Assembly (NCBI RefSeq): GCF_024298865.1
Contig: NZ_CP101161.1
Span: 579,227-643,226 of the forward strand
Reading direction: 5' to 3'
Length of the DNA stretch: 64,000 bases
DNA from: Halorarius halobius
GTDB lineage: Archaea > Halobacteriota > Halobacteria > Halobacteriales > Haloarculaceae
Of the stretch, positions 27,201 to 39,917 are shown piece by piece. Under the pieces are notes generated by a model. That model made no database searches and was not told where the DNA came from. It saw only the letters and a list, made by a program, of their open reading frames with translations. Numbering within the stretch: position 1 is the stretch's first letter; every line of letters starts with the position of its first letter. Position numbers and translations under genes: made by a program.

Positions 27201-28294
27201 GGCTCCACCTCCCTGCCGTGGCGTGCCAGCCGGTCGTAGTCGGCCTGCTCGCGGCTCCAGGCCCACGCGGCCGCGGGCACCTCCGGCGCGTCCGGTCGGT
27301 CCCGCCGGCGGGCCAGCGCGTCGGTGCCCGTCACCAGCGCCCGCGCGTCCGTCTCGGTCGCCAGCGCACCCGCAAGGACCGACAGCGCCCGCTCGTCGCC
27401 CCAGTCGGCGAGCGTCCGGTACACAGCGGCGCGGACCCGTGGTGAAGGGTCGCCCGTCAGCCGCTCCAGATACCGACCGCCACGGAGGTCTTCGCGCCAG
27501 CCGAGCCCGGAGAGCGCACGAGCGCTGGCGGCTCTGACGGCCGCCGACTCGGCTTCCAGCGTCGCCGTCAGCCACGAGATGTCACCGCCGCCGACGCTGG
27601 ATTCGAGTTCGCGACAGACCTCGAGCACCTGCACCAACAGCGACTCCGGCCACGCGTCGGCGCGGGTAGCCGCCATCGAGAGCAGTGCCGCCGGGTCGCG
27701 GCGGGCGACCCGGTAGAGCGTGTCCTGTCCGAACACCGTGAACGGCGCGTCGGTGCCGTCCAGCAGGAGCGTGAGGCCGTCGGCGACCGTCGTCGGCGCG
27801 TCGCTGTCGTGATAGAGGCGCGTGACGGTGGCACGCTCCCTGGGGGTCCGGGGGGTGAAATTCGACGCCCGACAGAGGTCGGGCCGCTGGAGCAAGACGA
27901 GCCACGTCAGCGCTTGCAGGCGGTCGTACTCGCGGCGGCGGTCGAGACGACGCGCCGACCGCGCGGGGATGCCGAGCGCCTCGCCCAGGTCCCGCAGGCG
28001 CTCGGCGTCGCTCCCCTGGAGTTCGCGGAGATACTCGTCGAGCAACGACTCTACCACCTCGCGTTCGAGTGCCGACAGCCCCGCGACCCACGGCTCCCAG
28101 CCGGCGGTCGGGGTGAACACCCGGTCGAGCAGTTCCTCGCGGAGGCGGTCGCGGTGTCGGTCACGGCGGGCCCTCGCCGCCGCGCGGTACACCGAGAGGC
28201 CGACGGTGAGCGAGAACGACACCGTCAGCGCGACGCCCAACACCAGCGCCGCGACGACGAGCGGCGACAGGTCGGTGGGCACGGGGGCCGCCAT
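27197..28294 (-). CDS. Membrane-anchored HEAT-repeat protein
   Basis: A 365-residue protein with one N-terminal membrane helix (about residues 9-35, LVVAALVLGVALTVSFSLTVGL) and a long soluble part of helical repeats. Typical HEAT units are seen near residues 235-345, for example SAAVRAASARALSGLG, SPRVRAAVYRTLADWGDERAL and TDARALVTGTDALARR. Such proteins usually serve as protein-interaction scaffolds. It is in an operon between the receiver (15 bases upstream) and the glycosyltransferase (four-base overlap), so it may link the phosphorylated receiver to the membrane enzyme. That link is inference from gene order. Confidence 0.8.
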   Translation of the reverse strand: MAAPVPTDLSPLVVAALVLGVALTVSFSLTVGLSVYRAAARARRDRHRDRLREELLDRVFTPTAGWEPWVAGLSALEREVVESLLDEYLRELQGSDAERLRDLGEALGIPARSARRLDRRREYDRLQALTWLVLLQRPDLCRASNFTPRTPRERATVTRLYHDSDAPTTVADGLTLLLDGTDAPFTVFGQDTLYRVARRDPAALLSMAATRADAWPESLLVQVLEVCRELESSVGGGDISWLTATLEAESAAVRAASARALSGLGWREDLRGGRYLERLTGDPSPRVRAAVYRTLADWGDERALSVLAGALATETDARALVTGTDALARRRDRPDAPEVPAAAWAWSREQADYDRLARHGREVEP

Positions 28295-34481: not shown

Positions 34482-36209
34482 TCAGACGGCTTCCGGCCCG
34501 GTCTTCCCGGTACGAATCTGGTGGGCGTTCTCCACCGGTAGGACGAACACCTTTCCGTCGCCCGGTTCGCCCGTCGTCGCCGCGTCGCGGATGGCTTCCG
34601 CGACCTCGGCGGCGGGCACGTCCGCGACGACGCACTCCACCTTCACCTTCTGGTGGAGGTCGACCGTGTACTCCTCGCCGCGCCACTGGCCGGTCTTCGC
34701 CGGTTGCGAACCGCGCCCCGAGACGTTCGTCACCGTCAGCGAGGGCGCACCCACTTCGGCGAGGCCGCGCTTGACGTCCGCGAGCTTGTCCGGGCGGATG
34801 AACGCCATCACGAGCTTGATGTCGCCGTCGTTGGGGCGGCCGCCGTCCGTGCGGACGATACCGTCGTCCCCGACGACGCGGCCCCCGTCGGCGGCCGTCT
34901 CGGGCCCCCCGAACTCGGGGTAGGTGTCGACGCCGTGTTCCGAGACGTCGAGCCCCTCGCGTTCGTGGTCGGGGGAGACGCGGGCCTCACCCAGCGACCG
35001 CAGGAGCCCGAACACCGCCGCGGTCGCGGCGACGGTCCAGGCCGTGATGAGCACCACCAGTGCCACCTGCCCGACGAGCGCGTCGAGGAAGAAGGCGGCG
35101 TCGAAGCCGGCCGCCCACGTCGGCACCGCGACCACCGGGTACAGCAGAGCCCCGAGCAGGCCCGCGGAGCCGTGGACCGGGAAGACGGCACAGACGTCGT
35201 CGATCTTCAGCCGCTTCTCGACGAACCCGAACACGAGCGGCAGTTGTGCGCCCGCGACGAGGCCGACGAACAGCGCGCCGACCCAGAGGATGTCGTCGGT
35301 GATGGAGGTGATGCCCACCAGCCCCGCGAGCATCCCGTTGGCGACGTACAGCGTGTCGACCTTGCCGGTCTTGTACAGCGCCGTGCCGCCCGCGCCGATG
35401 GCGCCGGCGGCCATTCCGAGCGTCGTCGTGAGCGCGACCCGACCGACGTAGTCGAACGCGCCCAGCGAGAGGATGCCCTCGTCCGCGGCGGCGGTCGCGT
35501 CGAACACCGATGCCGCGGTGCCGACGTTGAACCCGTACCAGCCGAACGCGAGGATGAGCGTCCCCAGCACCGCGAACGTCAGCGAGTGGCCGGGGATGAC
35601 GTTCACCGAGCCGTCGGTGTTGTAGCGGTCCATCCGCGGGCCGATGATCCACGCCGCGGTCAGGCCGGCGACCCCGCCCATCCCGTGGACGATGACGCCG
35701 CCCGCGAAATCGTGGAAGCCGATGGTCGAGAGGATGCCGCCGCCCCACGTGAAGCCGACGACGACGGGGTAGATGACTGCCGCCAGCAGTATCGTGTAGG
35801 TGACGTACGCGCGGAGCTTCGCGCGGCCGGCGACCGCGCCCGACACGATGGTCGCGGCGGTCATCGCGAACACCGCGCCGAACAGCCAGCTCACCCAGCC
35901 GTCCGACCCGGCCGACCACGTCGCCGTGAGGTCGGCGAGCGCGTACTCGCCGCCGCCGGTCAGGCCGCCGACGATGGTGGAGACGCCCGCGCCGACGAGG
36001 AAGAAGGCGATGACGCCGATGCTCCACGTCAGCATGTTCTTCGTCAACTGGTTGGCGACGTTCTTCGAGCGCACCTGCCCCGCCTCCAGCATGGCGAAGC
36101 CGGCGTGCATGAAGAAGATGAGGAACGTGACCGTCAGCACCCACAGGAGGTTCACCCCCTCCGCGAGCGCGGCCACGTCCACCCCCGACTGCAAGGCGAT
36201 ACCGTTCAT
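34482..36209 (-). CDS. amt: Ammonium transporter with fused C-terminal PII domain
   Basis: The 575-residue protein joins an Amt channel (about residues 15-420, 11 helices) and a complete PII (GlnB/GlnK) domain (about 463-575) by an acidic Gly-rich linker. Amt features include [30 protein letters not shown]-type sequence at the start and the central histidine region [20 protein letters not shown]. The PII part has the T-loop with Tyr in [15 protein letters not shown] and the ATP-binding [19 protein letters not shown]. The PII domain is nearly the same as the free GlnK at 36909-37256. Fusion would tether the gate regulator to the channel. Confidence 0.95.
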
Positions 36210-36289: not shown

Positions 36290-36396
36290 AACTATCCTAC
36301 ATAAGCGTTAGCTTGAAAATCGCAAAGTTGTCTGGAGTATAAGGAACGGGCGTCCAATATGCCGTACGATATTACGGATATAAGGTCGTTCTTCGT
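36290..36396 (-). promoter_or_regulatory. Upstream control region of the amt-PII fusion gene
   Basis: No gene is accepted between 36210 and 36486. On the minus strand a TATA-like CTTATGTAG (about 36295-36305) lies 90-100 bases before the start. A second, CTTATAT (36378-36384), lies 170 bases before it. The latter sits in a 19-base sequence, 36378-36396, that is identical to 38795-38813 upstream of the second amt gene. Similarity extends to about 36445. This suggests shared regulation by nitrogen supply. Confidence 0.45.
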
Positions 36397-36486
36397 CAAG
36401 GAATCGTGCGTTCGTCGCGAGAGAGTCTGGACGGCCGTCCACCGCCTGACGCGCGGGAACGGGCCACACGGGCCGACGCGCGGTCG

Positions 36487-36906
36487 CTACAGCAGGCCGC
36501 GTCGGTCGCCCTCTGTCGCGGTCCGGACCGCGGCGTCCGCGACGACGCGCTGAACGCGGTCGTCCATCGCCAGCGCCGCGAGGAACGCCTCGCGGCCGGT
36601 GTCGTCCGTGAACCGACAGACGGCGAGGAGGTTGTCGCCGCCGGTCAACTCGAACACCGCGTGGGCCCCGCCGAGCGTGCGGAGGCAGTCGGCCACCCCG
36701 TCGACGTCGCCGGGCGCGACGGCCAGCCGGACGACGACGGTCCGGGCGTCGAGGGCGTCGTGGTCGACGAGCGGCGCGTACCCCCGTATCCGGCCGTCCG
36801 ATTCGAGTGCATCCAGTCGCCCCTCGTCGACCGCGAGGCCGGCGCGGCCGACGCGCTCGTCCGCGCGCCGGCGGGCCGGCTCCTCCCCCCCGGAGCGCCC
36901 GGACAC
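36487..36906 (-). CDS. Lrp/AsnC-family transcriptional regulator
   Basis: From the GTG at 36906, two bases after the glnK stop, the product is 139 residues. Residues about 10-40 follow an Lrp HTH (ARRRADERVGRAGLAVDEGR, then LDALESDGRIRGYAPLVDHDAL), though the recognition helix is unusually rich in Arg and Gly. The ligand-binding RAM-like domain follows: TVVVRLAVAPGDVDGVADCL, then HAVFELTGGDNLLAVCRFTD. As the third gene of the amt-glnK operon it could control nitrogen genes in response to an amino acid. Start is chosen for the operon spacing. Confidence 0.78.
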   Translation of the reverse strand: MSGRSGGEEPARRRADERVGRAGLAVDEGRLDALESDGRIRGYAPLVDHDALDARTVVVRLAVAPGDVDGVADCLRTLGGAHAVFELTGGDNLLAVCRFTDDTGREAFLAALAMDDRVQRVVADAAVRTATEGDRRGLL

Positions 36907-36908
36907 GG

Positions 36909-37256
36909 TCAGACCGCTTCCGGCCCCGTCTTGCCGGTGCGGATCTGGTAGGCCGCGTCGACGGGCAGGACGAACACCTTCCCGTCGCCCGGCTCGCCGG
37001 TCTTGGCGGCCTCGCAGATGGCCTCCGCCACGTCGCTCCCCTCGACGTCGGCGACGACGCACTCGACTTTCACCTTCTGGTGGAGGTCCACCGTGTACTC
37101 CTCGCCGCGGTACTGGCTCGTCTTGGCGGGCTGAGAGCCGCGCCCGGAGACGTCCGTGACGGTCAGGGAGGGCGCGCCGACCTCGGCGAGCCCCCGCTTC
37201 ACGTCAGCCAGTTTGTCGGGGCGGACGTACGCGACGACCATCTCGATGTCGCTCAT
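36909..37256 (-). CDS. glnK: Nitrogen regulatory protein PII (GlnK)
   Basis: A 115-residue trimeric signal protein that binds ATP/ADP and 2-oxoglutarate and blocks the Amt channel with its T-loop when nitrogen is plentiful. Visible: [20 protein letters not shown], the T-loop [20 protein letters not shown] with a Tyr at the uridylylation-type position, and the B-loop [19 protein letters not shown]. Its ATG overlaps the amt stop by four bases (ATGA), the usual amt-glnK coupling. The Lrp-like gene follows directly. Confidence 0.97.
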
Positions 37257-38614
37257 TCGGACTCACCCCCGTCGGTCCGGAGTTCGCGGCCGCCGTCCGC
37301 GACGGCGGCGGGGCCGTCCCCACCGCTCTCGACGGTGAACTCGGGGTAGGCGGACATGCCGTGTTCGCCCTGGTCGAGCCCGACCTCCTCCTCCTCCTCG
37401 CTGACGCGCAGGCCGATGACCGCATCGATGGCGCCGAGCACGAGCATCGAGGTGAGGACGGTCCAGGTGCCGATGAGCAGCGAGCCGGCGACCTGCATGA
37501 CGAGCTGGTTCAGCGAGAACCCGGCCACGTCGAAGAACGGGATGAGCATCGTCCCGATGAAGCCGGCCGACCCGTGGACGGCGAACACGCCACAGACGTC
37601 GTCGATGCCCAGCGAGTCGACGGCCCACCGGTAGACGAGCGGCGTCTGGACGCCGCCGACGATGCCGATGACGAGCGCACCGGGCCAGGAGACGTGGACG
37701 CAGGCGCCCGTGATGGCGACCAGCCCCGCGAGCAGACCGTTCGCGGCGAACAGCGGGTCGGGCTTCCCCTCCCGGACGGTCGTTACCATCGTGGAGGCGA
37801 GCATGCCGGCACCCATCGCCAGCGTCGTGTTGAGCGCGACCCGGCCGAGCGCGGCGCCGTTGAAGCCGCCGTCGCTCGTCAGCACCGTCGCCTGCGTGCC
37901 GACGTTGAACCCGTACCAGCCAAAGGCGAGGATGAGCGTCCCGATGACCGCAAAGAGGACGCTGTGGCCCGGAATCGGCTTCGCGTCGCCGTTGCTGTCG
38001 AACCGGCCCTTGCGCGGGCCGACCATGTAGGCGGCGGTCAGACCCGCGATGCCGCCCATCGCGTGGACGACCGTCGCGCCCGCGAAGTCCTTGTAGCCGA
38101 CGCCGAGCGCCTCCCCGAGGAACCCCGTCGAGGAGAGCAGACCGGTGCCGCCCCACGTCGACCCCGAGACGACGGGGTAGAGGACGGCGACCAGCACGAA
38201 CGCGTAGACGACGTACGCGGAGTACTTCATCCGCTCGGCGACCGCGCCCGACACGATGGTCGCGGCGGTCATGGCGAAGACGGCGCCGAACAGCCAGCCG
38301 ACCCACGCCGTGGGGTCGTTGACGTACGCGAACGCCGAGGAGACCGAGAACTCGACGCTCGGCGAGCCGAGCATCCCCGCCATCGCGGAGACGCCCGCCC
38401 CCACGAGGAAGAACACCAGCACGCCCATCGACCAGTCGGTCATGTTCTTCATCACGACGTTGCCGGCGTTCTTGGCGCGTACCTGTCCGGCCTCCAGCAG
38501 CGCGAACCCGGGCTGCATGAAGAAGATGAGGAACGTCACCACCAGCACCCACACCGCGTTGATGCTGTCGGCGATGGCGGTGATGTCACCCTGCATCGGA
38601 ACGAACTCCATCAT
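37253..38614 (-). CDS. amt: Ammonium transporter
   Basis: A 453-residue Amt/MEP/Rh channel with 11 predicted helices, conducting ammonium or ammonia into the cell. The N-terminal segment [20 protein letters not shown] and [19 protein letters not shown] are typical. The twin-His region is [20 protein letters not shown], and [19 protein letters not shown] holds the second. The C-terminal tail is short and acidic without a PII domain, unlike the other amt gene. ATG codons at 38614 and 38611 are both possible. It is the first gene of amt-glnK-lrp. Confidence 0.95.
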
Positions 38615-38936
38615 CAGTCAGTACCTCCGTCAATCGGACTGCAAACGTCCATGTTTTCTCCTTTTTCGGCCATGTTCGTGACCTCGTATGCGGTCGATGC
38701 TCACGGAGGTTTGCTATATAATGGTTTGGTTGCGAGTTTCAGAATTTCCGCCGCAACTAATGACGTTCGTTCGAAATGCGATACAATAATATCAATATAA
38801 GGTCGTTCTTCGTTAGAGAACCGGACGCGCGTCGGTCGGGGAACTGGACGGTCGTCAACGGCAGAATCTGCCGAACGTGGGGTGTGACGCTTGCACGCGC
38901 GACGGACGTAGCCCGAGCGGGGAGTCGCTCCGGACG
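38615..38936 (-). promoter_or_regulatory. Long upstream region of the amt-glnK-lrp operon
   Basis: No gene is supported in these 322 bases between amt and hemB. The half near amt is AT-rich. On the minus strand a TATA-like ATTATATAG (about 38712-38721) lies about 100 bases before the amt start. A second, CTTATAT (38795-38801), lies 181 bases before it, within the 19-base core shared with the other amt gene (38795-38813). Similarity between the two upstream regions spans about 38776-38861. The rest shows no clear feature. Confidence 0.45.
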
Positions 38937-39917
38937 TTACAGTAGTTCCGCGACGTCCTCGGCGAAGTAGGTGAGAATCAGGTCCGCGCCCGCCCGCTTG
39001 ATGGACAGCAGCGACTCGTGAGCGACCGCCTCCAAATCGAGCCACCCCTGCTCGGCGGCGGCGTGGAGCATCGCGTACTCGCCGGAGACGTTGTAGGCGG
39101 CGACGGGCCGGTCGACGGACTCGCGGACGTCCCGCACCACGTCGAGATACGGGAGCGCGGGCTTGACCATCACCACGTCCGCGCCCTGCTCGACGTCGAG
39201 ACGGACCTCCCGCTTCGCTTCCCGGCGGTTCGCGGGGTCCATCTGGTAGTGGCGCCGGTCGCCGAACGCGGGTGCGCCGTCGGCGGCATCGCGGAACGGT
39301 CCGTAGAACGCGGAGGCGTACTTCGCGGCGTACGCCATGATGGGCACGTCCGCGAGGCCTGCCCCGTCGAGCGCCTCGCGAATGGCCGCGACCTGTCCGT
39401 CCATCATCCCCGAGGGCGCTATCATGTCGGCGCCGGCCTCGGCCTGCGAGACGGCGGTCTTCGCGTACAACTCGAGCGTCGCGTCGTTGCGGACGGTCAA
39501 CTCGGGGTCCGCGGCGGCGTCGGATTCTAGCACGCCACAGTGGCCGTGGTCGGTGTACTCGCACAGACAGAGGTCAGCGATGACGTAGGCGTCGGTCCGG
39601 TCGGTGATGCGGCGGGTCGCCCGCTGGACGACGCCGTCCTCCGCGTACGCGCGACTTCCCTCCGGGTCCTTCGATTCGGGGATGCCGAACAGCATCACCG
39701 CTTCGACGCCCGTCTCCATGACCTCGCGCACCCGGGCGACACTCTCCTCGACGGGGACCCGCTCGTGGCCCGGCATCGACTCGATGGGGACCCGCTCGTC
39801 GGCCGTCGCGTCGACGAACACGGGCGCGATGAGGTCCGACGCCGACACCGACGTCTCCGAGACCATCTCGCGGACGCCGTCGCCACGCAGGCGACGTGGC
39901 CGCTCGGTGAACTCCAT
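38937..39917 (-). CDS. hemB: Delta-aminolevulinic acid dehydratase (porphobilinogen synthase)
   Basis: The enzyme condenses two 5-aminolevulinates into porphobilinogen, the step between HemL and HemC, whose genes are at 9282 and 7539. The 326-residue product has the zinc site [16 protein letters not shown] with three cysteines, so it is a Zn-type enzyme. It has the catalytic lysines in [18 protein letters not shown] and [15 protein letters not shown], and the magnesium-site-like [16 protein letters not shown]. Complete, cytoplasmic. It is on the same strand as the nitrogen genes but separated from them by 322 bases. Confidence 0.97.

Follow-up and report, generated by a model that had tools for sequence, protein, structure and literature searches.

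Two copies of a similar DNA block lie near two ammonium transporter genes of Halorarius halobius, and the question raised by this locus is whether they represent a common control region for nitrogen assimilation, a conserved RNA leader or the trace of a duplication. The window, i.e. the whole stretch of DNA analysed, comprised 64,000 nucleotides. The genes of the locus are arranged on the minus strand in the order hemB, amt1, glnK1, an Lrp-like ORF and amt2-PII (Table 1). Since all neighbouring genes run on the minus strand, the block is located upstream of both amt genes.

The initial annotation had described an identical 19-base core, weaker similarity over about 90 bases, a position ahead of both amt starts, and a second TATA-like box about 95 bases before each amt gene; all of this was borne out. 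The 19-mer ATATAAGGTCGTTCTTCGT occurs exactly at 36378-36396 and 38795-38813, and the ungapped similar block (36346-36445 and 38763-38862) comprises 100 nt at 70% identity, approximately 150-180 nt from the amt start codons. Second TATA-like boxes are located at 36297-36305 and 38714-38721, approximately 94-105 nt before the start codons. At up to three mismatches, no match to the 19-mer was found in the window beyond the two blocks, and none in 100 shuffles. In the whole genome, the exact 19-mer has two copies, both at amt, and a single additional match carries three mismatches. A repeat or mobile element was ruled out by this copy number and location.

Conservation was assessed in a set of 76 regions upstream of amt, taken from 57 genomes in the same family-level group. 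The conserved arrangement, termed cassette here, was recovered in 72 of the 76 regions by a profile refined iteratively from the anchor AC.ACCTTATAT. A leave-one-out core score of at least 15 was reached by 68 of the 76 regions versus 0 of 1520 shuffled controls (shuffle maximum 13.4). Within the window, the core profile gave its two highest scores, 36.4 (amt2) and 36.0 (amt1), at the blocks, the next-best place reaching 7.5. A core lacking from orthologous amt promoters had been named beforehand as refuting the claim; the core is conserved there, and the claim survived. The two blocks are likely, in our judgement with considerable confidence, to be two copies of a haloarchaeal nitrogen-assimilation control region consisting of a promoter and operators. 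Isolated operator-like matches of 14-15 bits at window positions 27403, 29039, 26396 and 49690 were without a core and may be due to chance.

Table 1. Predicted elements and genes of the amt locus (window coordinates)
Feature	Position	Strand	Basis
hemB	38937-39917	-	neighbour of amt1
amt1 predicted operator O1 CGTTGACGACCGTCCAGTT	38842..38860	-	centre -45 from P1 core; operator PWM 22.0, top in 64 kb window
amt1 predicted operator O2 GACCGACGCGCGTCCGGTT, weaker middle site	38819..38837	-	PWM 12.4
amt1 predicted operator O3 TAACGAAGAACG..., degenerate, abuts BRE/TATA of P1	38802..38820	-	fixed register in 63 non-redundant promoters
amt1 predicted promoter core P1 ACGACCTTATATTGATATTATTGTATC (BRE + TATA + TAwTAT)	38780..38806	-	core PWM 36.0
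amt1 putative operator O4 TCGAACGAACGTCAT at predicted P1 +1	38759..38777	-	position kept family-wide, +39 from core
amt1 predicted second promoter P2 CAACCAAACCATTATATAGCA	38712..38732	-	offset +74 from P1
amt1 leader half-site TGGACG at O6 position	38635..38654	-	sequence; TGGAC positional peak at 156-158
amt1, ammonium transporter	37253..38614	-	PF00909 6.5e-104; TIGR00836
glnK1 (P-II)	36909..37256	-	PF00543 6.2e-24
Lrp/AsnC-like ORF, RAM domain, degenerate HTH, between glnK1 and amt2	36490..36906	-	NCBIfam TranRegLrp_Halo NF041396 2.8e-10, below cut-off
amt2 predicted operator O1 GGTGGACGGCCGTCCAGAC	36425..36443	-	PWM 17.3
amt2 predicted operator O3 TTGACGAAGAACGACC, abuts BRE/TATA of P1	36385..36403	-	fixed register
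amt2 predicted promoter core P1 ACGACCTTATATCCGTAATATCGTACG	36363..36389	-	core PWM 36.4
amt2 putative operator O4 TTGGACGCCCGTTCC at predicted P1 +1	36342..36360	-	sequence and conserved position
amt2 predicted second promoter P2 CAAGCTAACGCTTATGTAGGA	36295..36315	-	PWM 24.9 at +74
amt2 predicted operator O6, palindrome GTGGACGCTCGTCCAC immediately before start codon	36218..36237	-	PWM 17.0/15.5, both strands
amt2 fused to C-terminal P-II (GlnK) domain	34482..36209	-	PF00909 and PF00543

Positions in the consensus were numbered in gene orientation, with the first base of AC.ACCTTATAT as position 0. P1 is a BRE-preceded TATA box with the consensus AC.ACCTTATAT...TAATAT (TATA at 6-12, TAATAT at approximately 16-21), so that the BRE, the TATA box and the proximal element of a predicted archaeal promoter are all present. 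A second TATA box, P2 (consensus AAgCnAAnncTTATGTAg), lies at +74 or +75 in 71 of the 72 promoters; the two TATA boxes are therefore approximately 80 bp apart. By contrast, the start of the aligned protein is found at a variable distance, from 187 to 271. We infer that transcription starts from both P1 and P2.

The putative operators were compared in 63 non-redundant promoters. The inverted repeat GTnGACGnnCGTCCA is present in O1 and rcO4, and O3 clearly retains one half; O1, O3 and O4 represent one common motif. O1 has the consensus GgTnGACGaaCGTCCaga with its centre at -45/-44 and a weak preference for AA at the two central bases, and is followed by the weaker O2 at -22. O3 (opposite strand, GTyGTnnttCGTCCAGaaa) is centred at -4 and touches the BRE; at both amt1 and amt2 it includes part of the 19-mer. 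O4 (opposite strand, GTaGACGnnCGTCCAAAAT) overlies the predicted +1 with its centre at 39, and its central bases are variable. A short TGGAC site recurs at 156-158; at amt2 in the window, this site forms a perfect palindrome by the start codon.

Operator centres in amt, narK, nasD and lrp promoters were located at -45, -34, -22, -4, 39 and 69. Expressed in helical turns of 10.5 bp, the main spacings are 3.9 (O1-O3), 4.1 (O3-O4), 8.0 (O1-O4) and 2.9 (39-69); the O2-O3 spacing of 1.8 turns fits whole turns more poorly. O1 lies one helical turn nearer in several promoters of narK and nasD, at -34 rather than -45. Such near-whole-turn spacing is good but indirect evidence that a protein complex would occupy one face of the DNA.

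The conserved leader offered as an alternative by the initial annotation, i.e. a riboswitch-like RNA element in the amt mRNA, found no support in the distribution of conservation. The TATA box has a mean information of 1.5 bits per base. Between O4 and P2 the value drops to background level, approximately 0.25-0.3, and after P2 it is approximately 0.2-0.3 except at the short, operator-like TGGAC site; conservation peaks upstream of the predicted P1 start, and no family was matched in an Rfam search. The predicted leaders of approximately 65-160 nt are long for haloarchaea and O6 of amt2 would fold as a hairpin, both of which speak for an RNA element, and yet we consider this explanation very improbable.

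To assess the occurrence of the control region at other genes, the R1 profile, for which amt promoters were the sole training set, was used; it matched 56 of the 57 family genomes. Among the 15 family matches outside amt, the downstream gene was narK in 10 cases, nasA in two, and nasD and lrp in one each; one match (G013:883085, E=0.004) had no assigned gene. A NarK-type example matched TIGR00886 (5e-57, under cut-off), a nasA example matched haloarchaeal NasA (NF041323) above cut-off, and the nasD example, with NIR_SIR domains, matched ferredoxin-nitrite reductase PRK09566 (4e-126, under cut-off). Class-wide, matches were obtained in 135 of 194 genomes and 50 of 66 genera. A sample of 38 class matches comprised amt (29), nasD (6), narK (1), lrp (1) and an orphan near hemL (1). 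The last was found in G062 (C1:2741350-2743700) about 2 kb past the first amt element, with hemL next and no amt, and may be what is left of a second amt that was lost. When 84,980 species were scanned with an exact pattern, 33 loci were obtained, 29 of them haloarchaeal, many from Haloferax and Haloarcula; amt was downstream in 28 of these, and one was cut by the end of the record. The remaining four loci, which are bacterial and have no such gene downstream, are chance matches.

These results support the claim of a common nitrogen control region, as the cassette is conserved at orthologous amt genes throughout the class and recurs at nitrate and nitrite assimilation genes. The sequences compared show that the cassette exists, that it is rigidly spaced and conserved, and that it is confined to nitrogen genes. 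They also bear on a recent duplication of the amt locus, in which the shared block would merely reflect common descent. Amt1 and Amt2 are paralogous and their coding regions can be aligned; the proteins are only approximately 50-55% identical, however, in contrast to the identical core, and the cassette precedes non-homologous genes and is kept across families. Common descent of the loci is excluded as the source of the shared cassette because narK, nasA, nasD and amt are non-homologous; in G226, divergent nasD and amt genes are each preceded by a cassette. Duplication as the sole explanation was refuted by the narK, nasA and nasD copies, and we give a purely genealogical origin of the block hardly any credence.

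In the genome of H. halobius itself, the profile search returned the two amt cassettes and no others. A copy at glutamine synthetase, as suggested by the initial annotation, was not found: neither cassette nor operator was detected in the glnA-lrp intergenic region, and glnA was ruled out as a cassette member. A search for narK at E<=1e-15 gave no match, an empty answer that carries little weight for a search of this kind. In a genome of the same genus (G008, C1:2033900-2043000), a truncated nasA and a truncated lrp lie tail to tail, and lrp keeps a strong cassette copy; this looks like decay of a nitrate-assimilation cluster. Because the own genome has just the amt copies, no operator at glnA-lrp and no narK match, and nasA is truncated in G008, the regulon may have been reduced to amt in Halorarius. 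Two similar stretches 20 kb apart in the own genome (C1:3587315 and C1:3567177) resemble the -10/O4 part alone (TATATTCTGGCC..ATTAGACG.TTGTCC). They were rejected as cassettes; no TATA box was seen, and no nitrogen gene was recognised downstream.

In methanogens, NrpR binds operators at amt/glnK and other nitrogen-assimilation promoters and has an equivalent physiological role. NrpR (PF01995) was found in none of the 10 genomes searched, including the own one, and methanogen controls were positive. In haloarchaea, amt-glnK and nas are strongly ammonium-regulated and NtrBC is absent; amt-glnK is induced without ammonium, and no amt transcript is seen with ammonium (PMC3831643). The nitrogen regulatory network has been described as poorly understood (PMC6801745), and transcriptional control of amt-glnK has been stated as unknown (PMC3831643; PMC6801745).

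The regulator is, at about even chances, a protein of the Lrp/AsnC family, perhaps the glnA-linked Lrp or a paralog. This family is favoured, first, because the placement of O3 and O1 resembles that at archaeal Lrp activators, which occupy one site within a few bp of the BRE, on its upstream side and at a constrained position, and further phased sites (PMC2995911). The predicted sites share with Lrp-type sites an inverted repeat of 13-17 bp, a location just before the BRE and, O2-O3 excepted, spacing near whole turns. Second, lrp genes are linked to the cassette or to amt-glnK in two families: the cassette precedes an lrp gene in G008 and G119, and in G226 an lrp gene comes after amt-glnK; G119 and G226 belong to a family other than that of G008. 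Third, the ORF at 36490-36906 is, judged by its NF041396 match below cut-off, a predicted degenerate relative of the haloarchaeal glnA-linked Lrp, and its homologs hold the same position in related genera. Fourth, the glnA-linked Lrp of Hfx. mediterranei was recovered on the nasABC promoter by pull-down (PMC8143581). In Halobacterium, Lrp affects glnA (PMC2894021). For the glnA-linked Lrp of the own genome (G000:C1:434416), the solved structure 8q90 appears to be a very close relative (1.1e-71). The ORF at 36490-36906 is possibly a stand-alone effector-sensing partner of Lrp, and Amt-PII fusions like Amt2 occur in relatives as well.

A real control region served by another regulator, of ArsR-, TrmB- or HTH_10-like type or of a new HTH family binding GACGnnCGTC repeats, is a serious possibility, to which we assign somewhat less than an even chance. 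The GC-rich operator centre is atypical of Lrp (the centres of published archaeal Lrp sites are AT-rich, those of the cassette only weakly so), cassette-bearing lrp genes are few, and the own glnA lies next to lrp without the element, which speaks against Lrp. In one family, 5 of 18 genomes have Lrp and no detected cassette (counted regardless of amt presence). The association of lrp genes with the cassette in two families, the pull-down on the nasABC promoter (PMC8143581) and a geometry fitting Lrp activators argue against a non-Lrp regulator.

The direction of control, the regulator and its effector would fit together as follows. The region has two TATA boxes, P1 and P2, approximately 80 bp apart, and phased GTnGACGnnCGTCCA repeats lie both about P1 and past P2. 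O1 and O3 are probably occupied on the same face of the DNA, just upstream of the BRE, by a regulator acting as a dimer or oligomer, which under nitrogen limitation would help to recruit TBP/TFB to P1. O4, at the +1 of P1 and upstream of P2, may serve cooperative binding or repression, and O4 and P2 would be part of the same complex as O1-O3. Glutamine is a possible effector.

The location of O4 at +1 could favour repression over activation. A repressor at O3/O4 might block TBP/TFB or RNA polymerase in ammonium sufficiency and be released by nitrogen limitation; O4 covers the predicted +1, O3 touches the BRE, and the lack of amt transcript with ammonium (PMC3831643) agrees with this. A remote phased upstream site such as O1 is, however, typical for activators, and mutation of the nasABC promoter in Hfx. 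mediterranei reduced expression, as expected for an activator site (PMC8143581). We regard repression as possible, but rather doubtful. A more extended proposal is put forward tentatively, with somewhat less than an even chance: a class-wide haloarchaeal nitrogen regulon would replace NrpR, an Lrp-family regulator would wrap phased operators round two rigidly coupled TATA boxes, and P1/P2 would form a single switch for ammonium and nitrate uptake.

Among known systems, the methanogen NrpR regulon differs in its operator, and NrpR was absent from the 10 genomes searched. A nitrogen-shift motif of Hfx. volcanii, AAAGACTAART, is AT-rich and occurs at 492 genes (PMC6801745). That study likewise deals with genes that respond to nitrogen, its input promoters include amt1/amt2, and it also invokes an Lrp-like regulator; its motif was not found in the conserved cassette consensus of the family. 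For Hfx. mediterranei, palindromes had already been pointed out in the promoters of nasABC and nasD (PMC2483277), and Lrp was pulled down on nasABC (PMC8143581), both of which resemble the present case; the accessible sections of these two papers contain no link to amt, consensus, regulon or two-TATA layout. The cassette consensus, the amt-nas link and the fixed two-TATA layout were not found in the main texts of the papers searched, and the cassette appears to be previously undescribed.

For the control of haloarchaeal nitrogen assimilation, the cassette offers a concrete handle on the regulator. It defines exact predicted operators and promoters together with a candidate regulon, and it occurs in species that are genetically tractable (Haloferax has it at amt); with operators this precise, the regulator should therefore be findable by footprinting or pull-down and testable by deletion. 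The SELEX consensus of Ptr2 is reportedly GGACGATTTTCGTCC, with similar half sites and a 5-bp spacer. As at archaeal Lrp-activated promoters (Ptr2 of M. jannaschii, LysM, Ss-LrpB; PMC2995911), an inverted-repeat dimer site is located a few bp before the BRE at a constrained position, and further sites lie on the same helical face. The cassette departs from these promoters in its GC-rich repeat GTnGACGnnCGTCCA, in having an additional site at +1, and in a second TATA box that lies at a fixed distance of 80 bp.
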